This document shows, in pieces, positions 11,056 to 21,679 of a DNA stretch of 64,000 nucleotides (its first letter is position 1; each line of letters opens with the position of its first letter). Both the position numbers and the translations under genes were made by a program. The notes under the pieces are model-generated. The model searched no databases. It saw only the letters and a program-made list of their open reading frames with translations, and was not told the origin of the DNA. The DNA is taken from assembly GCF_017312725.1 (NCBI RefSeq), contig NZ_BOPO01000039.1:1-64000 (forward strand), in the 5' to 3' direction. Source of the stretch: Actinocatenispora comari. GTDB taxonomy: Bacteria; Actinomycetota; Actinomycetes; Mycobacteriales; Micromonosporaceae.

Positions 11056-13167
11056 TCAGGGGGTGGGGGCCGGCGCGGACTCGTGGCGCAGTGCGCGGCC
11101 GGCCTCGGCGCCGGCGGCGAAGGCGGTGACGGCGTCCACCGCGCCGTCCGCCGCACCGCCGACCACCCGGTACGGCACGGCCAGCTCGGCGATCATCGGA
11201 CGCAGCGCATCGGCGGGCAGCTGCCCGGCGGCGACGACCACGGTGTCGGCCGGGACCAGTTCGGGTCCGTCGGCGCCCGCCAGCAGCACACCGGCGGGCG
11301 TGATCCGGTCGTAGCGCACGCCGGTCCGCAGCAGCACGCCGCGTCGGCGCAGCGCCGCCAGCAGCGCCCAGCGGGTGGTCCGGCCGATACCGGTGCCGAT
11401 GCGGGGGCCGCGGCGCAGCAGCGTGACCTGGCGGCCGCCGGTGACGCCGAGCGGCGCGGCCAGCCCGTGTTCGGCCCGGAACCGGTTCCGCTCGTCGCCG
11501 TCGGTGCGGCCGTGGCTGAGCAGGTGCGCCAGGTCGACGGCGATGCCGCCGCCGCCGACGACCACGACGCGCTCGCCGAGCCGGTCGGCGGCGGCGAACG
11601 CCTGCGGGTAGGTCAGCACGTTCGGGCCGTCGGCGCCCGGCAGGTCGACCGGCCGGGGCAGCACTCCGGTCGCGAGGACGATGCCGGCGCAGCCGGCGAG
11701 CTCGGCCCGGTCGTCCGGCCCGACCGGGTGGGCGAGCCGCAGCTCGACACCGAGCGCGGCGAGCTCGGCCGCGTAGTACTCGATGGTGGCGCCGTAGTCG
11801 GCCTTGCCGGGTACCAGCCGGGCCAGCCGGAACTGCCCGCCCGGCTCGTCGGCCGCCTCGTACAGCACGACCCGCTCGCCGGCGGTCGCCAGGGCGTGCG
11901 CGGCGGCGAGCCCGGCCGGCCCGGCGCCGACCACCGCGTACCGCCGGCGATCCCGGCCACGCTCGCCGCCGCCCGCGCGCGTCGCGTCCGCCACGGCCGC
12001 TCCCGGGTCGGCGAACCCGGCGGCGGGAAGCAGGCTCAGCTCGCGGCCGGCGGCCGGGTTGACCATGCAGGAGACCGGCTCGTCGGCCAGCGACCGGTCG
12101 ATGCAGGCCTGGTTGCAGCCGATGCACACGTTCACCGGCCGCGCCGCGCGCGAGCGCGCGATCAGCTCGGGGTCGGCGAGGAACGGCCGGGCCAGGCTGA
12201 CCAGGTCCGCGTCGCCGGCGGCAAGCAGCTGTTCGGCCTGCGCGAGCCGGTTGATCCGGTTCGAGGCGATGACCGGTACCGCGCCGGCGACCGCGGCCCG
12301 GATCCGCGCCGGGTACGGCGCCCAGGTGCCGGGCGGCACGACCGCCTGCACCGTCGGTACCCGGGACTCGTGCCAGCCGATGCCCACGTTGAGCGCCGCG
12401 GCGCCGGCCCGCGCCAGCTCCCTCGCCAGCGCGAGCACCTCGTCGGTGTCCGGCGCGCCGTCCATCAGGTCGGCGCCGGACATCCGGTAGAGCACCGGGA
12501 AGTCGGCGCCGGCGGCGTCCCGGACCGCGGCCAGTACGGCCAGCGGGAAGGCGCGGCGCCGCGCCGCGTCGCCACCCCACCCGTCGTCGCGCCGGTTGGT
12601 GACGGCCGAGGTGAACTGGTTGAGCAGGTAGCCCTCCGAACCCATCAGCTCGACCGCGTCGAACCCGAGCCGCCGCGCGGTCGCCGCGCCGCGGGCGAAG
12701 TCGTCGATCGTCGCGGCGATCTCGGCACCGGTCAGCGCCCGCGGCGGGTCCGGCGAGAACCGGCTCGGTACCGCCGACGGCGCCACCGGCCGCAGCCCGA
12801 ACGAGGCGGCGAAGGCGTACCGCCCGGCGTGGAACAGCTGCAGGGCGATCAGCCCGCCGGTCTCGTGCACCGCCTCGGCCACGCGTGCCAGCCGCGGCGC
12901 GTGCTCGCGCTCGCCGACGACGCTGTAGTGCACGCCGCCGGTGCCGACCCGGTTGACCGCCGATCCGCCGGTGACGATCAGCCCGGCGCCGCCGGCCGCC
13001 CGCGCCGCGTAGAACGCGGCCAGCGCGGCGCCGCCGTCGTCGCGGTCCTCGATGCCCAGGTGCATCGAGCCCATCACGACCCGGTGCGGCAGGGCCAGGC
13101 CGCCGAGCGTCACCGGGCTCAGCACCCGCCGCAACCCGACCGGATCGGCGGCTGGTCGATCAGCCAT
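11056..13167 (-). CDS. 2,4-dienoyl-CoA reductase-like flavoenzyme (OYE + FAD/NAD domains)
   Basis: A 703-residue Old Yellow Enzyme of the FadH/2,4-dienoyl-CoA reductase type. Residues 10-370 form the FMN barrel (LSPVTLGGLALPHRVVMGSM; FHAGRYA; YLLNQFTSAVTNRRDD; SLARPFLADPEL). A cysteine cluster for one [4Fe-4S] centre follows (CIGCNQACIDRSL... ending in VSCMVNP). A pyridine-nucleotide disulfide-oxidoreductase-like half follows, with two dinucleotide folds (YAVVGAGPAGLAAAHALA; VVVVGGGGIAVDLAHLL). It would reduce conjugated dienoyl-CoA using NADPH. It is last in the operon, and its ATG overlaps the SDR stop by 8 nt, implying translational coupling. By context it fits the dienoyl-reducing enzyme of cyclohexanecarboxyl-CoA synthesis (the AnsM type in ansatrienin producers, as I recall). 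Confidence 0.85.
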   Translation of the reverse strand: MADRPAADPVGLRRVLSPVTLGGLALPHRVVMGSMHLGIEDRDDGGAALAAFYAARAAGGAGLIVTGGSAVNRVGTGGVHYSVVGEREHAPRLARVAEAVHETGGLIALQLFHAGRYAFAASFGLRPVAPSAVPSRFSPDPPRALTGAEIAATIDDFARGAATARRLGFDAVELMGSEGYLLNQFTSAVTNRRDDGWGGDAARRRAFPLAVLAAVRDAAGADFPVLYRMSGADLMDGAPDTDEVLALARELARAGAAALNVGIGWHESRVPTVQAVVPPGTWAPYPARIRAAVAGAVPVIASNRINRLAQAEQLLAAGDADLVSLARPFLADPELIARSRAARPVNVCIGCNQACIDRSLADEPVSCMVNPAAGRELSLLPAAGFADPGAAVADATRAGGGERGRDRRRYAVVGAGPAGLAAAHALATAGERVVLYEAADEPGGQFRLARLVPGKADYGATIEYYAAELAALGVELRLAHPVGPDDRAELAGCAGIVLATGVLPRPVDLPGADGPNVLTYPQAFAAADRLGERVVVVGGGGIAVDLAHLLSHGRTDGDERNRFRAEHGLAAPLGVTGGRQVTLLRRGPRIGTGIGRTTRWALLAALRRRGVLLRTGVRYDRITPAGVLLAGADGPELVPADTVVVAAGQLPADALRPMIAELAVPYRVVGGAADGAVDAVTAFAAGAEAGRALRHESAPAPTP

Positions 13168-14002
13168 CGGTCTCGCGTCGGGTCGGCGCGGCGGGTGGTA
13201 CCTCCGGCAGCCGCAGCGGCGGCGCGGTGTCGGCGTGGAACGGCGGCGCGATGGTGGACAGCCCGCCGTCCACCACGATCGACTGGCCGGTGATGTAGCC
13301 GGACGCCGCCGACAGCAGGAACAGCACCACGTCGGACATCTCCTTGACCGACCCCATCCGCCGCTGGGGTACCAGCCGCAGCACGTCGTCGAGCGCCGGC
13401 ATCCCGGGCACGTCGTAGAAGTACGCCGACGAGTCGGACTCGATGATGCCCCCGTTGACCGCGTTGACGTTGATCCCGTACTGCGCGAACTCGACCGCCA
13501 TGTAGCGCACCCACGCCTCGATCGCGGCCTTCGCCGAGCCGAGGTTCGCGTAGCTCGGGTAGGCGCGGATCGACCCGTAGCTGGACAGCGTGACGATCCG
13601 CCCGCCGCCGGTCATCAGCGGTACCGCGCGCTGCGCGCCGAGCACCAGTGCCCGGACGTTCATCGCGTACGACCGGTCGAGGTTGTGCGCCTTGAGCTCC
13701 ATGATCGGCTTGAACGAGCTGGCCGCCGCGTTCGACACGAAGTGGTGGATCGTGCCGTAGGTGCTCTCCACGACGTCGAAGAGCCGGTCGATGTCGTCCG
13801 GCTCCTCCACGTCCGCGGCGACCGTGATCCCCTTGCCGCCCAACGCCTCCACCTCGGCCAGCGTCTTCTGCGCCGCCTCGGTGTTGCGCTTGTAGTTGAT
13901 CACCACGGTGCCGCCGGCCGCGGCCAGCGACAGCGCCAGCGACCGCCCGATGCCCCGCGAGGCCCCGGTGATCACGGTGACCGTGTCAGCGAACTCACTC
14001 AC
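13160..14002 (-). CDS. chcA: SDR enoyl-CoA/ACP reductase, ChcA-like
   Basis: A 280-residue short-chain dehydrogenase/reductase. The GTG at 14002 overlaps the stop of the acyl-CoA dehydrogenase gene (GTGA). The nucleotide-binding TGASRGIGRSLAL and NAAAS motifs are present. The active-site region reads SYANLGSAK, a Tyr150-x6-Lys157 spacing as in enoyl-ACP reductases (FabI/FabL) rather than the usual Tyr-x3-Lys. The C-terminus (INVNAVNGGIIESD; GQSIVVDGG) also resembles FabL. Length and context match 1-cyclohexenylcarbonyl-CoA reductase (ChcA) of Streptomyces collinus, which repeatedly reduces alpha,beta-double bonds on the way from shikimate to cyclohexanecarboxyl-CoA. The gene symbol is by analogy; an ordinary enoyl-ACP reductase role is the alternative. 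Confidence 0.7.
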   Translation of the reverse strand: MSEFADTVTVITGASRGIGRSLALSLAAAGGTVVINYKRNTEAAQKTLAEVEALGGKGITVAADVEEPDDIDRLFDVVESTYGTIHHFVSNAAASSFKPIMELKAHNLDRSYAMNVRALVLGAQRAVPLMTGGGRIVTLSSYGSIRAYPSYANLGSAKAAIEAWVRYMAVEFAQYGINVNAVNGGIIESDSSAYFYDVPGMPALDDVLRLVPQRRMGSVKEMSDVVLFLLSAASGYITGQSIVVDGGLSTIAPPFHADTAPPLRLPEVPPAAPTRRETDG

Positions 14003-15192
14003 GGCCGTTCCTCCTTCTCCGCGAACTCGCGCAGTACCTCGCGGGCGATCACGGTCTTCTGGATCTCGTTGGTGCCCTCCTCGAACCGCTGCGCCCGGGC
14101 GTCCCGGTACACCCGTTCGATCGGGCTGGTCGACCAGTAGCCGATGCCGCCGTGGATCTGCAGTGCCCGGTCGGTGACCCGGGTCAGCATGTCGACCGCG
14201 GTCAGCTTCGACGCCGAGGACAGCACGGCCGCCTGCGGGCTGCCCGCCTCCCACTCCCGGGCGGCGTGCAGGGTCAGCGCCCGGGCCGCCTCGATGTCTG
14301 CGGCGTTCTCCGCGATCGCGAAGCTGATCGCCTGCCGCTGGGCGAGCTTCTTGCCGAACGTCTCCCGCCGCAGCGCGTGCGCCATGGCCAGCTCGTGCGC
14401 CCGCCGGGCCAGCCCCACGCAGCTCATCGCCACCGAGATCCGGCTCGGCTGCAGGAACCCGCCGAGCGCGACCTCCAGCCCGCGACCCTCCTCGCCGAGC
14501 CGGTTGCCCACCGGCACCGGGGTACGGTCGAACGTCAGGTGCGCGTGGTCGGTGCCGTGCACGCCCATCGTCTCGGCCATCTCCTCGACGGTGACGCCCG
14601 CCGCGTCCCGGTCGACCATCAGCGCGACGGTGCCGTCCCTGCCGGTGGTGCCGGCCAGCCGGGCGAACAGCAACCACCAGTCGCACGTCACCCCGAACGT
14701 GATCAGGTGCTTCTCCCCCGACAGGACGTACGTGTCGCCCTCCCGCGTCACGCTGCACCGCAGGTCCGCGCCGGTGCCGGCGGTCGGCTCGGTCAGCGTG
14801 AACGCCGCCTTCCGCTCCCCCGCGATCACCGGCAGCACGAACCGCTTGCGCTGCTCGTCGGTGGCGAACTGGTCGATCGCCCGCCAGATGCCGTTGACCA
14901 CGTGCACGATCATCCGGATCGACGCGTGCGACATGGAGAACAGCTCCATCAGCTCCAGGTACCGGGAGAACGGCACCCCACGCCCGCCGTACTCCACCGG
15001 TGCCGCGAGCGACAGGTAGCCGCGGTCACGCAGCTGCGCGAACATCTCGTCGGGTACCTCGCCGTCGGCCTCGATGCGCTGCGCCCACCGCTCGGCCGGC
15101 CCGGCCACGTACTCGGCCACCTCGGCCTTGAGCGCCAGGAACCGTTCCTCGTCCGCGCCGGTGTCGGGTCCCGGGGGCTTGGTCTGGGTCAC
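13999..15192 (-). CDS. Acyl-CoA dehydrogenase
   Basis: A 397-residue FAD-dependent acyl-CoA dehydrogenase. Start GTG 15192 has GAGGAG 7 nt upstream; longer frames run into the preceding gene's tail. Domains in order: helical N-terminal (ERFLALKAEVAEYV; GYLSLAAPVEYGGRG), beta-barrel (AFTLTEPTAGTGADL; LSGEKHLITFGVTCDWWLLFAR), and helical C-terminal (RRETFGKKLAQRQAISF; QIHGGIGYWSTSPIERVYRDARAQRFEEGTNEIQ split over residues about 340-385). The Glu in the FEEGT segment is the likely catalytic base. In the ansatrienin cyclohexanecarboxylate pathway an acyl-CoA dehydrogenase (AnsL, as I recall) introduces a double bond during ring deoxygenation; that role is inferred here from the operon. Confidence 0.85.
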   Translation of the reverse strand: MTQTKPPGPDTGADEERFLALKAEVAEYVAGPAERWAQRIEADGEVPDEMFAQLRDRGYLSLAAPVEYGGRGVPFSRYLELMELFSMSHASIRMIVHVVNGIWRAIDQFATDEQRKRFVLPVIAGERKAAFTLTEPTAGTGADLRCSVTREGDTYVLSGEKHLITFGVTCDWWLLFARLAGTTGRDGTVALMVDRDAAGVTVEEMAETMGVHGTDHAHLTFDRTPVPVGNRLGEEGRGLEVALGGFLQPSRISVAMSCVGLARRAHELAMAHALRRETFGKKLAQRQAISFAIAENAADIEAARALTLHAAREWEAGSPQAAVLSSASKLTAVDMLTRVTDRALQIHGGIGYWSTSPIERVYRDARAQRFEEGTNEIQKTVIAREVLREFAEKEERP

Positions 15193-15262
15193 GTCGTACT
15201 CCTCGTCGCAGGGGTGTGGCGCGCGGCCGGCGCCGGGCCGGGCAGCGGGTCGCGGTGCCGGG

Positions 15263-18200
15263 TCACCGGGCACCGTCCCGCTCCGGGCGCAGCGTGCGGG
15301 CCCGCTCGCGCAGCAGGTACTTCTGGATCTTTCCGGTGGGGTTGCGGGGCAGCTCGTCGACCAGTTCCAGCCGCTCCGGCCAGTACGTCTTCGCCACCTG
15401 ATGGGTGTTGAGGTACTTCTGCATCGCGCCGAAGTCCAGGTCGGCGTGCGGCGCCGGCACCACGAACGCGCAGGCGCGCTCGCCCAGCCGGGGGTCGGGC
15501 ATCGCGACGATCGCGACCTCGGCCACCGACGGATGCTCGTACAAGAGCTGCTCGATCTCCGACACCGGTACCTTCTCCCCGCCCCGGTTGATCACGTCCT
15601 TGACCCGGCCGGTGATGCGGATGTACCCGGACTCGTCGATGATGCCCAGATCCCCGGTGCGGAAGAACCCGTCCGCGGTGAACGCGGCCGCGGTCCACTC
15701 CGGATGGTCCAGGTACCCCTGGAAGAACGTCGGGCTCTTCAGCTCGAAGTTGCCCTCGACCCCGGCGGGCAGCTCGCGGCCGTCGCCGTCCACGATGCGG
15801 ATGGTGATGCCGGACAGGGCCCGCCCGTCGGTACCCCAGGTCTTCGCCGGCTCGTCGCCCGGTGCGGCGAGCGTGCCCAGGCACGTCTCGGTGGTACCCC
15901 AGGCGCCGCACACGGTGGTACCGAGGATGCGGGTGGCGCGCTCGGCGAGACCGCGCGGCACGGCGGCGCCGGTGGCCACGAAGATGCGCAGCGACTCCGG
16001 CGCCCGGTCTCCGTCCTCGACGCCCTTGACCAGGTCGGCCAGGAACGGCGTGGCGGCCTGGACGAAGCTGACCCGGTGGTCGCGCATCGCCCGCAGCGCG
16101 CGCGACGACGACCACTGCCCCTGGATCACCTGCGGCGCGCCGAGCACGAACGCCAGCCACATCCCGTACAGGAAGCCGGTCTGGTGCGCCAGCGGCGACG
16201 GGATGTAGACGGTGTCGTCGGGGCCGAGCCCCAGGTGCCGCACCTCCATCAGTGCGGCGGTGGTCAGCGACCGGCCCTGCATCAGCGCGGCCTTCGGCTC
16301 CCCGGAGGTACCGGAGGTGAACAGCAGCTGTGCCGTCGCGTCGGGGCTGGGCCGGTGCGCACCGAGCCTGGTGACGTCGATGGTCACGTCCCGCAGCAGC
16401 TCGGGGTAGCTGTGCCAGGTGGCGCTGCCGCCATCCGGCAGCCGCAGCCGGTCGGCTCCGGCGTCGCTCGCCGGTACCACGATCACGTCGGTCAGCGCGT
16501 CGAGCCCGCTCCCGTCGGGGGTACCGCCGGCGGTCGCGGCGTCGAGGGCGGCATCGCCGGCGCTGCCGGACATCCCGGCACCGAGCAGCGCGGCCACCTC
16601 CTGCCGGTGGTCCCGGCCGCGGAAGGTGTCCGGGACGAACAGCACCTTGGCGCGGGAGCGACGCAGCGCGAACGCCATCTCGCGTTCCCGGAAGATCGGC
16701 ATCAGCGGGCAGCACACCGCGCCGATGCGCAGGGTGGCGAGCGAGATCACCACGAACTCGAACCAGTTCGGCAGCTGGAACGCGACCCGGTCGCCGGCCT
16801 CGACCCCCAGGTCGAGCAGCAGCGTGGCGACCCGGTCGGCCTGCTCCATCAGCTCCTGCCAGGTGTGCGTGTGCATCGCACCGGGGCGCACGTCGACGAC
16901 CGCGGTGGCGTGCGGCCGTTCGGTGGCCCAGCGCTGCACCCACTCGCTGATCGGTACCTGCGCGGAGGCCTGCGCCTTCCGGCCGCGGGACCGGCGTGGC
17001 CGGCCGGTGCCGGTGCCGTCGGCGACCGACATCGGGATGCCGATGCCGTTCATCGCGGTCAGGAACTCCGGATAGGAGATCCGGTACGCGTTGGGGTAGG
17101 TGAGGCTGGACCGCCCGGCCGCGCGGGAGGCGGCGACCGCGAGCGACATCAGGACCCGGTGGTCGTTGAACGACGACATGCTCGCCCCGGTCAGCGCCGG
17201 CACCCCGTGCACCCGCAGCGTCGAGTCGGCCAACTCCAGCCGGCCGCCCATCCGGTTGAGCTGCAGCATCGCCGAGGCGCGGTCGGACTCCTTGAGCCGG
17301 GCGTGCCCGACGTTGCGCAGCACGGTGGTACCGCGGGCGAAGGTGGCCATCGTGGACAGCACCGGCAGCATGTCCGGCAGGTCCCGGCAGTCGACCTCGG
17401 TCGCGGCCAGCGGCGAACCGTCGTGCCGGACCCGGACCGCGCCGGCGGCGGCGTCGTAGTCCAGGTCCAGGCCCATCCCGGCCACGATGGACAGCAGTTC
17501 CGCCTCGGGATGGTCGGTGTCGGCCGCGGCGGTACTGGTCAGCCCGCGGAACAGCACGTCGGAGGGGTGGATCGCGGCCGCGGCCAGACCGAACGCGGCC
17601 GAGCCGATGTCCGGCGGCAGCGTCACGGTGGCCGGCACCGGCTGCTGGTCCGGCTCGACGGTGAAGGTGCGCCAGTCGTCGGCGACGTCGACCGCCAGAC
17701 CGAACCGGCGCATCATGTCGACGGTCAGCCGCAGGTAGGTGCGCTCGTTGAGCTCGCCCTCCACCTCGATCACGGTGCGGCCGGTGGCGAACGGTGCGAG
17801 CAGCACCAACCCGGAGATCCACTGCGACAGCGTGCCGGGGATCTGCACCCGCCCGCCGGTGGGCCGGTGCGGCTGCACCTGGATCGGCGGGCAGCCGTCG
17901 GCGGACGACAGCCGTACCCCCATCTGGGTCAGCGCGCGCAGCAGCGGGGCGACCGGGCGACGCTGGAAGTACTTCTGGCCGGTGACGGTGACGGGGGCGT
18001 CGGCGAGCGAGGCGAGCCCGATCATGAAGTACAGGGTGGTACCGGAGCTGCCGGCGGTGACCGTCTCGCGCACCGGGTGGTAGCCGCCGCCGTGCACCAC
18101 GAACGTGTCGCCGCTGATCTCGACCCGGACGCCGAGCGCGCGCAGCAGCTCGACGGTGTAGTGCACGTGGTGCGCGTCGGACAGGCCGCGCACGGTGCTG

Positions 18201-18313
18201 GTACCGGGTGCGAGCGAGGCGAGGATGAGCGCCCGGTGCGCGTGGTACTTGGAGTTCGGAACGACGACCTCACCGGTCAGTGGCTCGCTCGTCCCGGCGA
18301 CCGACAGATGCAC
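15263..18313 (-). CDS. AroA-like (EPSP synthase fold) / AMP-forming acyl-CoA synthetase fusion
   Basis: A continuous 1016-residue reading frame joining two enzymes. GTG 18313 is preferred (GGGAGG upstream, 4-nt gap), making the first lysine Lys22 as in E. coli AroA; the frame is open to 18391. Residues 1-425 have the EPSP-synthase fold: VVPNSKYHAHRALILASL, LSQWISGLVLLAPF, LPPDIGSAAFGLAAAAI, HARLKESDRASAM, SFNDHRVLMSLAVA. Key changes: the GNAGTxxR loop is TAGSSGTTLYFM (Arg lost), and the C-terminal Lys of the usual KTFPDY segment is replaced (RISYPEF). After a basic linker (RPRRSRGRKAQ), residues about 448-1016 are an adenylate-forming CoA ligase: LLFTSGTSGEPKAA near 668, a GAWGTTETCLG box, FFRTGDLG, GRVKDVINRGGEKV, and NPTGKIQKYLLR near 990-1001. 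Together it likely activates shikimate (or a derivative) as CoA thioester and eliminates a hydroxyl, starting cyclohexanecarboxyl-CoA synthesis. First gene of the operon. Confidence 0.85.
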   Translation of the reverse strand: MHLSVAGTSEPLTGEVVVPNSKYHAHRALILASLAPGTSTVRGLSDAHHVHYTVELLRALGVRVEISGDTFVVHGGGYHPVRETVTAGSSGTTLYFMIGLASLADAPVTVTGQKYFQRRPVAPLLRALTQMGVRLSSADGCPPIQVQPHRPTGGRVQIPGTLSQWISGLVLLAPFATGRTVIEVEGELNERTYLRLTVDMMRRFGLAVDVADDWRTFTVEPDQQPVPATVTLPPDIGSAAFGLAAAAIHPSDVLFRGLTSTAAADTDHPEAELLSIVAGMGLDLDYDAAAGAVRVRHDGSPLAATEVDCRDLPDMLPVLSTMATFARGTTVLRNVGHARLKESDRASAMLQLNRMGGRLELADSTLRVHGVPALTGASMSSFNDHRVLMSLAVAASRAAGRSSLTYPNAYRISYPEFLTAMNGIGIPMSVADGTGTGRPRRSRGRKAQASAQVPISEWVQRWATERPHATAVVDVRPGAMHTHTWQELMEQADRVATLLLDLGVEAGDRVAFQLPNWFEFVVISLATLRIGAVCCPLMPIFREREMAFALRRSRAKVLFVPDTFRGRDHRQEVAALLGAGMSGSAGDAALDAATAGGTPDGSGLDALTDVIVVPASDAGADRLRLPDGGSATWHSYPELLRDVTIDVTRLGAHRPSPDATAQLLFTSGTSGEPKAALMQGRSLTTAALMEVRHLGLGPDDTVYIPSPLAHQTGFLYGMWLAFVLGAPQVIQGQWSSSRALRAMRDHRVSFVQAATPFLADLVKGVEDGDRAPESLRIFVATGAAVPRGLAERATRILGTTVCGAWGTTETCLGTLAAPGDEPAKTWGTDGRALSGITIRIVDGDGRELPAGVEGNFELKSPTFFQGYLDHPEWTAAAFTADGFFRTGDLGIIDESGYIRITGRVKDVINRGGEKVPVSEIEQLLYEHPSVAEVAIVAMPDPRLGERACAFVVPAPHADLDFGAMQKYLNTHQVAKTYWPERLELVDELPRNPTGKIQKYLLRERARTLRPERDGAR

Positions 18314-18630: not shown

Positions 18631-20097
18631 CTACTCCGCGTGCCGGTCCAGGAACGTGTACACGTCGGTCTCGTCCACGCCGGGGAACGTGCCCGGCGGC
18701 AGCGCCGCGAGGATGTGCGAGTGCGCCCGCGCCGACGGCCAGGCGAGCTGGTCCCAGCGGCGGGACAGCTCCGCCGGGGGCCGCCGGCAGCACTCCCCGT
18801 CCGGGCACGCCGACTTCGCCGTGGTGGTCGTCTCCCGGCCGCGGAACCAGCGCGAGTCGGCGTACCGCACGCCGAGCGTGATGGCGAAGTTGCGGTCCCG
18901 GCTGGGGTCCACGTACGCGGCGCACCAGTGCGTGCCGTTCGGCTTGTCGGTGTACTGGTAGTAGATCGAGAACCGGTCCGGCGCGGCGAACACCTGCCGG
19001 CCCGACCAGTACCGGCACATCCGCTGGCCCTCGATCGCGCCGGTGGCGTCGGTCGGGAAGACCAGCCCGTCGTTCGCGTAGGCCTTGTAGATGATCCCGG
19101 ACTCGTCGTTCTTGGTGAAGTGGCAGCGCAGGTCCAGGTGCCGGGTGGCGAGGTTGGTGAACCGGTGCGCGGCCATCTCGTACGAGGTGGCGAACACGTC
19201 CCGCAGGTCCTCCACCGACAGCTCGCGCGCCCGCTTCGCCTGCTGCAGGTAGGGCACCGCGGCCGACTCGGGGATCAGCACCGCGGCGGCGAAGTAGTTC
19301 GCCTCCACCCGCTGCCGCAGGAAGTCGGCGAAGTCGCGGGGCTGGTCGTGGCCGAGCAGGAAGTGGCCGAGGGTCTGCAGCAGCACCGTGCGCGGGGTGT
19401 GCATGCCGAAACTGGCCCGGGCCAGGTAGATGCGCCGGTGCCGCAGATCGGTCACCGACCGCACCGAGTGCGGCAGGTCCGCGACGTAGCGCAGGGTGAA
19501 GCCGGCGTGCGACACCAGCGCCAGCAGCAGGCCCTCGGAGACCGCTCCCCCGCCGTACCCGACCGCCTCCAGCGACTGGGCGGCGAGCCGTTCGATGCCG
19601 GCGAAGTAGTTGTCCCGCTCGCGCATCTCGGTGCGCAGCGCCGCGTTCGCGATCCGCGCCTCCTCCGGGGTACCGGTCGGGCGCGCGTCGCGGCGCTTGA
19701 GCTCGCCGTACAGGGCGACGAGGTGTTCCAGCACGTCGGTGGGCACCCGGCGGGAGACGTGCAGCCGGGGCAGGCCGAGCGCGCCGTACAGCGGGTCGCG
19801 CTGGGCGGCGTCGAGCGCGAGTTCGAGCTGGGCGCGCCGGGTCGGCGGCTCGCCGGAGAGCAGGTCGTCGAGGCCACAGCCGAGCTCGCCGGCCAGCGCG
19901 GTGAGCAGCGACAGCTTCGGCTCGACCTTCCCGTTCTCCAGCATCGACAGCGCGGACGGCGAGCGGCCGACCCGCGCGCCGAGCTCGGCGAGGGTCAGCC
20001 CGGCCCGGCCGCGCAGGTGCTTCAACCGCTGGCCGAAGGTCGCAAGATCGAGCTCTGCGGTGAAACTCTGATTTTCTTTCGACTGCAACTTCGGCAT
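18631..20097 (-). CDS. ramB: RamB/ScfR-type short-chain fatty acyl transcriptional regulator
   Basis: A 488-residue regulator with an XRE-type helix-turn-helix at residues about 20-75 (FGQRLKHLRGRAGLTLAELG; SPSALSMLENGKVEPKLSLL), a middle IrrE/ImmA-like (M78) region whose HExxH is degenerate (TLGHFLLGHDQ), and a C-terminal DUF2083 part with paired cysteines (SACPDGECCRRPP). This is the architecture of RamB of Corynebacterium, which represses aceA and acetate genes, and of mycobacterial relatives controlling the glyoxylate and methylcitrate pathways. It is divergent from isocitrate lyase across 205 bp, supporting the same target. Autoregulation is suggested by nested inverted repeats 4 nt upstream of the start codon. 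It also sits directly upstream of the AroA/ligase operon. Confidence 0.85.
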   Translation of the reverse strand: MPKLQSKENQSFTAELDLATFGQRLKHLRGRAGLTLAELGARVGRSPSALSMLENGKVEPKLSLLTALAGELGCGLDDLLSGEPPTRRAQLELALDAAQRDPLYGALGLPRLHVSRRVPTDVLEHLVALYGELKRRDARPTGTPEEARIANAALRTEMRERDNYFAGIERLAAQSLEAVGYGGGAVSEGLLLALVSHAGFTLRYVADLPHSVRSVTDLRHRRIYLARASFGMHTPRTVLLQTLGHFLLGHDQPRDFADFLRQRVEANYFAAAVLIPESAAVPYLQQAKRARELSVEDLRDVFATSYEMAAHRFTNLATRHLDLRCHFTKNDESGIIYKAYANDGLVFPTDATGAIEGQRMCRYWSGRQVFAAPDRFSIYYQYTDKPNGTHWCAAYVDPSRDRNFAITLGVRYADSRWFRGRETTTTAKSACPDGECCRRPPAELSRRWDQLAWPSARAHSHILAALPPGTFPGVDETDVYTFLDRHAE

Positions 20098-20134: not shown

Positions 20135-20302
20135 CACATTCGGCTGGGGCGACGGCCGCGCGCACCACAGACTCGTCGGTATCGCGAGGCGACGCCCGGC
20201 CAGGTCCGCCGCTCGCCCCGCGGCCGGCGGCCACGCGGCGAGCCCAGCGATGTGCCAGCACCGCGTCGGCGACCATCAGCGCACCTTGCAGGAGGCAGCG
20301 AC

Positions 20303-21679
<1,377 letters not shown>

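Follow-up and report, generated by a model that had tools for sequence, protein, structure and literature searches.

Genes for making cyclohexanecarboxyl-CoA (CHC-CoA) are known mainly as starter genes of antibiotic clusters. In the ansatrienin pathway, alternating double-bond moves and reductions lead to CHC-CoA, and the genes responsible in Streptomyces collinus are, as we take it, ansJ to ansM and chcA, with J and K as separate genes; PlmJK of the phoslactomycin cluster is, judging by its name, presumably a fusion of the two. The related putative operon described here lies in Actinocatenispora comari, in a window of 64 kb (the whole stretch of DNA that was analysed: bases 1-64000 of contig C39 of genome G000, a 7.96-Mb assembly in 151 contigs). 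Table 2 of PMC5852498 lists plmJK, plmL, ChcA and plmM in that order. CHC-CoA is also described as the precursor of omega-cyclohexyl fatty acids, which make up 3.1% of the total fatty acids of the asukamycin producer and are fivefold more abundant in its asuC15 mutant (PMC4147253), and those of Alicyclobacillus and Sulfobacillus are reported to start from a cyclohexane primer derived from shikimate (PMC4378227, PMC3035248).

The window shares four genes with the phoslactomycin and lactomycin (lmP1-P4) clusters, in the identical listed order plmJK-plmL-chcA-plmM, and the encoded parts are referred to below as J and K (fused), L, C and M. The four minus-strand genes claimed in an earlier note on this DNA are all present as open reading frames, and they overlap or lie close together as it described: 70 bp separate JK from L, L and C overlap by 4 bp and C and M by 8 bp, a spacing consistent with a single operon. 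Searches of Pfam and NCBIfam concur with the domain assignments of all four proteins. Part by part, the identity to a Streptomyces locus (L038) in which JK, L, C and M follow in order is 55-68%; this and the plm gene set and order support the CHC-CoA operon that the note had proposed. Unlike phoslactomycin-type clusters, the window is without a polyketide synthase (PKS) gene, and a FabF-type ketosynthase and an acyl-CoA ligase are encoded instead at an unlinked place in the genome, contig C63. The absence of PKS and FabH genes from the window, also claimed in the note, was borne out, as the searches across the 64 kb recognised no PKS, no FabH and no ketosynthase of the C63 clade described below.

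The CHC-CoA reading of the operon is well supported by sequence comparison, drawing on the plm gene set and order, the loss of phosphoenolpyruvate-site residues in J and the Y-x6-K signature of C. Our preferred reading extends it, drawing also on the ketosynthase clade and the co-occurrence of the genes across genomes, and is held as probable: the operon would make CHC-CoA from shikimate, and the C63 ketosynthase and ligase would help to build omega-cyclohexyl fatty acids or a lipid derived from them.

J is a domain related to 5-enolpyruvylshikimate-3-phosphate synthase (EPSPS, AroA). The J alignment, run against GTDB genomes, matched 194 stretches, 171 of them encoding relatives, of which the best 80 (L028-L107) were kept, with fetched flanks of up to 10 kb that were often shorter at contig ends. 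The alignment holds 86 J rows (these 80 loci, the window, two other genus members and G308, G628 and G629) as well as EPSPS-family proteins of the same genome and its relatives, and a separate alignment was made to solved EPSPS. Arg100 and Lys411 of the Escherichia coli enzyme, which we take, in numbering and role, to be contacts of phosphoenolpyruvate (PEP), have Tyr and Ile as their equivalents in 86/86 J domains (Y95 and I412 in the window), and the Ser23 equivalent is Tyr in every row. The equivalents of Lys22, Arg27, Arg124, Asp313, Glu341, Arg344 and Arg386 are retained throughout; the window J keeps K22, R27, D314 and E342 in its own numbering, the catalytic Asp and Glu included. J has probably lost PEP transfer while its shikimate site and acid/base residues stayed in place, as would suit an enzyme that carries out an elimination on shikimate. 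Six EPSPS-family places, J among them, were found in the genome, and the AroA on contig C126 retains all examined residues.

AroA-like sequence on contig C64 was also looked at. A second EPSPS/ligase fusion, suggested by a 1017-aa open frame on this contig, was rejected, tblastn giving no ligase match there; locus L004 (G000:C64:53469-54683) encodes a second AroA-like protein in which several active-site positions differ in an unrefined alignment. A search of plasmids for J returned 25 records, all below 60% identity, and those displayed (28-34%) were mostly annotated as aroA.

For the K half, the nearest model is a cyclohexanecarboxylate-CoA ligase, and for L the nearest are acryloyl-CoA reductase and cyclohexane-1-carbonyl-CoA dehydrogenase, all scoring below their cut-offs. 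Degradation of cyclohexanecarboxylate was considered and dismissed on these scores (TIGR03208 ligase, 479 against 792.3; TIGR03207/NF043006 dehydrogenase, 138.9 against 575.35 and 200.3 against 650 bits). L is 75% and 66% identical to its cassette homologues in G098 and G308, and C, a short-chain dehydrogenase/reductase (SDR), is 63-64% identical to the SDRs at the same cassette position in these two genomes. The enoyl-reductase signature Y-x6-K is present in C and in 61/61 homologues from the loci. The earlier note had named an ordinary FabI or FabL, and likewise an ordinary AroA, as grounds for abandoning its proposal; neither was found, C missing the FabL cut-off (NCBIfam PRK08063.1, 238.7 against 328 bits) while matching the cassette SDRs, and J having lost its PEP-site residues in all rows. 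The nearest solved structure to M is 1ps9, a 2,4-dienoyl-CoA reductase; an Fe-S cysteine pattern was seen in 10/59 M proteins in its strict form and in 52/59 in a looser form, and no conclusion is built on either.

The candidate condensing enzyme was reached through G098 (locus L018), where a ketosynthase adjoins the cassette: its C63 relative in G000 is 76% identical over the larger matched part and those of G002 and G003, also of the genus, 74-75%, whereas the cassette-free genus member G001 yields nothing beyond a FabF-like match at 46% and a single weak PKS-like one. In a tree of 55 ketosynthases, the C63 enzyme falls within a 23-member clade (support 99/100) composed of 17 cassette-adjacent sequences, from Streptomyces, Streptosporangium, Microbacterium, metagenome-assembled genomes (MAGs) of Solirubrobacterales type and G098, together with the three genus members and three that are unlinked or from J-free genomes. 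This clade is separate from the FabF of the same genome (contig C8) and from a ketosynthase on contig C101, and the Eremiobacterota-type ketosynthases form another clade. The C63 enzyme belongs to the FabF (KASII) family, with the Cys, His, Lys and His residues retained in 23/23 clade rows, and differs from FabF in the clade-specific L164 and C304, which precede the catalytic Cys and His by two positions (compared with 11 other ketosynthases), and in scoring slightly under the fabF cut-off (TIGR03150, 478.5 against 493.75). The ligase lies downstream of the clade ketosynthase in all three genus members, and ligase relatives follow it beside the cassette in seven Streptomyces loci.

Near position 97 in the numbering of the Acidothermus protein, the C63 ketosynthase also carries an Ala/Gly/Pro-rich insertion of about 60 residues, and the G002 and G003 matches split near this position. 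In Streptosporangium saharense (L066:8802-18205, with a cassette) and at L168 (G689, no J match), the clade ketosynthase is accompanied by genes for a FabI-like reductase and a carrier protein, possibly a third use of the clade ketosynthase.

Co-occurrence of cassette and pair was assessed in 50 of the 80 loci genomes, namely 47 isolates and the MAGs L028, L029 and L103, leaving aside 29 MAG loci and L061 (the same strain as L044). Ketosynthase scores were bimodal, with 34/50 genomes at 500 bits or more, a cut chosen after seeing the gap, and the next best place at 346.5; the ligase (threshold E 1e-120) was likewise found in 34/50. One or both genes occur in 37/50 genomes; a comparison of their places by hand put the two side by side in 28 genomes, with divergent orientation in G727 and G728, and apart from each other in three (G762, G748 and G742). 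Among the 13 genomes with neither, 12 have a PKS, 3-amino-5-hydroxybenzoate (AHBA) synthase, FabH or nonribosomal peptide synthetase (NRPS) gene near the cassette: PKS in six (L043, L068, L072, L086, L089 and L097), AHBA synthase in L038 and L040, FabH in L079 (also with an acyl carrier protein, ACP), L093 and L098, and an NRPS gene in L100. The thirteenth, L052, showed nothing of these kinds nearby.

In an evenly drawn class sample, J occurs in 3/394 genomes, the ketosynthase in 2/394 (G000 and G098, both with J) and the ligase in 2/394 (G000, with J, and G196, without), so that three of the four background places lie in cassette-positive genomes; these background counts may be too low, since each genome of the sample had its top 3-4 first-look candidates scored, compared with as many as 28-35 in the 50. 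Fisher tests against J-free genomes gave 7e-39 and 2e-37 and, with genera counted once by hand grouping, 15/19 against 1/135 (p 2e-16); all these values ignore shared ancestry and selection among 50 related, non-randomly chosen genomes and serve as a guide only. In a Streptomyces sample, J was found in 6/295 genomes and the ketosynthase in 5/295, three of them with J (p 5e-5); G458 and G553 of this sample coincide with entries of the named set and add no independent cases. One of the six J genomes (G538, locus L170) has a J domain with an internal stop and no recognised neighbouring cassette genes, probably a decayed copy.

Besides these limits of sampling, several observations weigh against the preferred reading. 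The pair is unlinked to the operon in G000, and it is incomplete in six of the searched genomes, with the ketosynthase only in G747, G734 and G735 and the ligase only in G732, G737 and G776. The G196 ligase and the clade ketosynthases of G522 and G689 (Streptomyces) occur without a J match. Within the genus, co-occurrence amounts to three close species set against the more distant G001, where the search covered the ketosynthase, and the PKS cluster on C101 has the same presence pattern as the operon. J clears the NCBIfam aroA cut-off (TIGR01356, 304.5 against 287.25 bits), and for C the top NCBIfam model is FabL, as is its nearest solved relative (3oic). On the chemical side, the major fatty acids of Vulcanimicrobium alpinus, the first cultivated Eremiobacterota species, are given as iso-C14:0 and hydroxylated iso-C13/C14 (PMC9758169), a comparison that covers the major acids of a species that may or may not carry the cassette. 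A phenotypic hint in favour comes from Herbiconiux, whose genus description states "Cyclohexyl-C17:0 may be present" (PMC10011130): the Herbiconiux MAG L103, which is not the strain analysed for fatty acids, carries J-K-L, and a ligase relative lies 1.4 kb upstream of them, but neither C nor M was found in the remaining ~5.6 kb of contig downstream of L.

Four other accounts were weighed. It is unlikely that CHC-CoA enters fatty acids through the housekeeping FabH only, with the C63 pair serving another lipid and its co-occurrence incidental: the genome does have one FabH match, above the cut-off, the asukamycin producer makes omega-cyclohexyl fatty acids, so a special gene may be unneeded, and the clade ketosynthase occurs without J in G522 and G689, but its frequency in cassette-positive genomes (34/50 against 2/394) is far beyond background, and the ketosynthase, the ligase or both stand in the fetched cassette flanks of 20/80 loci. 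A use of CHC-CoA as polyketide starter for another cluster of this genome, either the type I PKS, FabF-like ketosynthase and ACP of C101 or a PKS/NRPS-like cluster on C2, appears quite unlikely. Elsewhere the cassette does adjoin PKS genes, and both the ketosynthase and the PKS of C101 recur in G002 and G003 without a matching one in G001 (FabF and a weak PKS-like match only); however, the PKS genes seen near cassettes lay within about 20 kb, farther ones being undetectable, and the window has none, and the six searched genomes with PKS near the cassette, like G308, have no clade ketosynthase or ligase, while G000 has both.

An end product other than CHC-CoA, such as a ring acid that is hydroxylated or still partly unsaturated, or a lipid that is not a fatty acid, is very unlikely; relatives without C (eight loci) or M beside JKL suggest that products may vary, but the window has all five parts in the order of the CHC-primed phoslactomycin-type clusters. 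That the genes encode ordinary AroA, FabL and beta-oxidation enzymes brought together by chance is scarcely credible: the aroA score of J and the FabL likeness of C would favour it, and against it stand the PEP-site losses, the separate intact AroA, the missed FabL cut-off and a gene order conserved across phyla.

Under the preferred reading of a CHC-CoA operon serving lipid synthesis, fused J and K would dehydrate shikimate and convert it to the CoA ester, and L, the ChcA-type C and M would help to strip ring oxygens and double bonds stepwise to give CHC-CoA, which would prime chain building by type II fatty acid synthase. The C63 ketosynthase might condense or extend cyclohexyl-acyl-ACP and the C63 ligase activate or recycle a cyclohexyl acid, both roles being guesses from co-occurrence, and the end product would be omega-cyclohexyl fatty acids or a lipid built on such acids. 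We infer the enzymatic steps, the fatty acid product and the roles of ketosynthase and second ligase.

Besides several Actinomycetota orders and Ca. Eremiobacterota, the 80 loci include single MAGs under other labels (one of them Gammaproteobacteria), and the J-K-L-C-M order is maintained wherever the parts are present. PKS genes occur in the fetched flanks of 4/80 loci (L072, L086, L089 and L097), and L043 and L068 add PKS genes within 20 kb beyond that count; a cassette without nearby PKS is the usual state. A clade ketosynthase is present in the flanks of 19/80 loci and another FabF-like ketosynthase in 17/80. A class I 3-deoxy-D-arabino-heptulosonate 7-phosphate (DAHP) synthase is found in 10/80, all ten from Ca. 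Eremiobacterota; in L042:7687-17035 and nine other such loci, a FabF-like ketosynthase lies upstream and DAHP synthase, which opens the shikimate pathway, adjoins the cassette. Alicyclobacillus and Sulfobacillus, which share with the proposed pathway a cyclohexane primer from shikimate, are both outside the best 80 of the 171 relatives.

Some cassettes lack a part beside JKL: C in L070, L071, L078, L082, L087, L090, L094 and L102, and M in L074, L075, L077, L081, L083 and L085. The Cellulomonas and Arthrobacter-like cassettes without C or M each form one J clade, in a J tree used for grouping only, its root and the direction of recruitment not being used since the outgroup turned out to be an ORF in the wrong frame. 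The ring product of such cassettes may differ, or the enzyme may be encoded elsewhere.

Ansamycin clusters differ from the window in their AHBA or PKS context. AHBA synthase lies about 3.6 kb from the cassette in Streptomyces L038 and L040 (E 2e-190 and 4e-189 to 1b9i), and in L040 a relative of class II DAHP synthase adjoins it (412 bits, cut-off 615); from these gene contents the two are ansamycin-type clusters, as expected for ansatrienin. L043 and L068 share their J clade and have PKS genes at most 20 kb from the cassette, and in none of the four was a clade ketosynthase or ligase found, unlike in the window genome. In G308, the cassette stands beside a large type I PKS gene and is 52-66% identical to the window, gene by gene. 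A broader model, on which we are evenly divided, would have a two-locus lipid module, in which the cassette is joined by an acyl-CoA ligase and a clade-specific FabF-type ketosynthase as dedicated condensing enzyme, build omega-cyclohexyl lipids across several Actinomycetota orders, and from this module the Streptomyces PKS and ansamycin versions were recruited, with a parallel version in Ca. Eremiobacterota that uses another ketosynthase and DAHP synthase.

Within the genus, G002 and G003 have the cassette block at 82-97% protein identity with the same aceA and regulator genes adjoining, a conservation that argues against chance. In a search of 61 genomes (this one and 60 relatives; E 1e-40), six matched, only G000, G002 and G003 at 95-100% identity, the remaining three being AroA-like at 31-35%. 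G001 keeps the syntenic aceA-regulator block, with the XRE regulator present without the cassette and a YjbR-family gene further along, and has ketopantoate-reductase-like and 5'-nucleotidase-like genes at the cassette position; the cassette may have been gained in the three species or lost in G001, as a single outgroup fits both. The regulator is remote from RamB (41 bits, cut-off 700). Base composition of the operon falls inside the range of the remaining window, and promoter and terminator scans recognised nothing, a result that carries no information. Coordinates are collected in the table.

Table. Features of the cassette, its neighbours and the unlinked pair in A. comari (window coordinates unless a contig is named; OYE, Old Yellow Enzyme)
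Feature	Position	Strand	Remarks
JK fusion gene (AnsJ/AnsK, PlmJK-like), EPSPS-like domain and acyl-CoA ligase	15263..18313	-	1016 aa, GTG start
JK Pfam domains			EPSP synthase, PF00275, residues 9-419; AMP-binding, PF00501, 460-868; AMP-binding C, PF13193, 919-995
J domain, EPSPS-like, without PEP-site Arg and Lys	17024..18313	-	JK residues 1-430
L, acyl-CoA dehydrogenase (AnsL/PlmL-like)	13999..15192	-	397 aa; acyl-CoA dehydrogenase domains (Pfam)
C, SDR enoyl reductase (ChcA-like)	13160..14002	-	280 aa, Y-x6-K signature; SDR domain (Pfam)
M, OYE/2,4-dienoyl-CoA-reductase-like flavoprotein (AnsM/PlmM-like)	11056..13167	-	703 aa; Pfam OYE and pyridine nucleotide oxidoreductase
XRE-family regulator, remotely RamB-like	18631..20097	-	317 bp upstream of JK; context gene, regulation of operon not implied
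Isocitrate lyase aceA	20252..21679	+	context gene
FabF-type ketosynthase	G000 contig C63, 74412-75851		also L154:12413-13852
Acyl-CoA ligase	G000 contig C63, 75977-77629		550 aa, downstream of ketosynthase

Two PKS or PKS-like clusters of the genome were also noted. The type I PKS cluster of C101 (L175; L179, G002:C1:52000-71999, in its relative) has a FabF-like ketosynthase and an ACP (PF00550); visual inspection adds an AMP ligase and a thiamine-diphosphate-type enzyme. Contig C150 (L178) carries several ketosynthase genes, found in this genome only among the four genus members and resembling, by eye, a type II PKS cluster.

The cassette itself belongs to a known kind; what is new is that it goes together with a condensing module encoded separately. 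The open-licence PMC literature gave no account of the ketosynthase/ligase pair or of the spread of the cassette, a weak negative as most literature of the field lies outside it. Automatic annotation may label J as AroA, since it clears the aroA cut-off. Unlike the antibiotic starter context, most of the cassette holders examined show no PKS beside the cassette. If the preferred reading is true, omega-cyclohexyl lipids would have a genetic marker throughout the actinobacteria and perhaps also in Ca. Eremiobacterota, a dedicated condensing enzyme would have been put forward as a candidate, and the occurrence of cyclohexyl chains in unrelated taxa would become a testable question.

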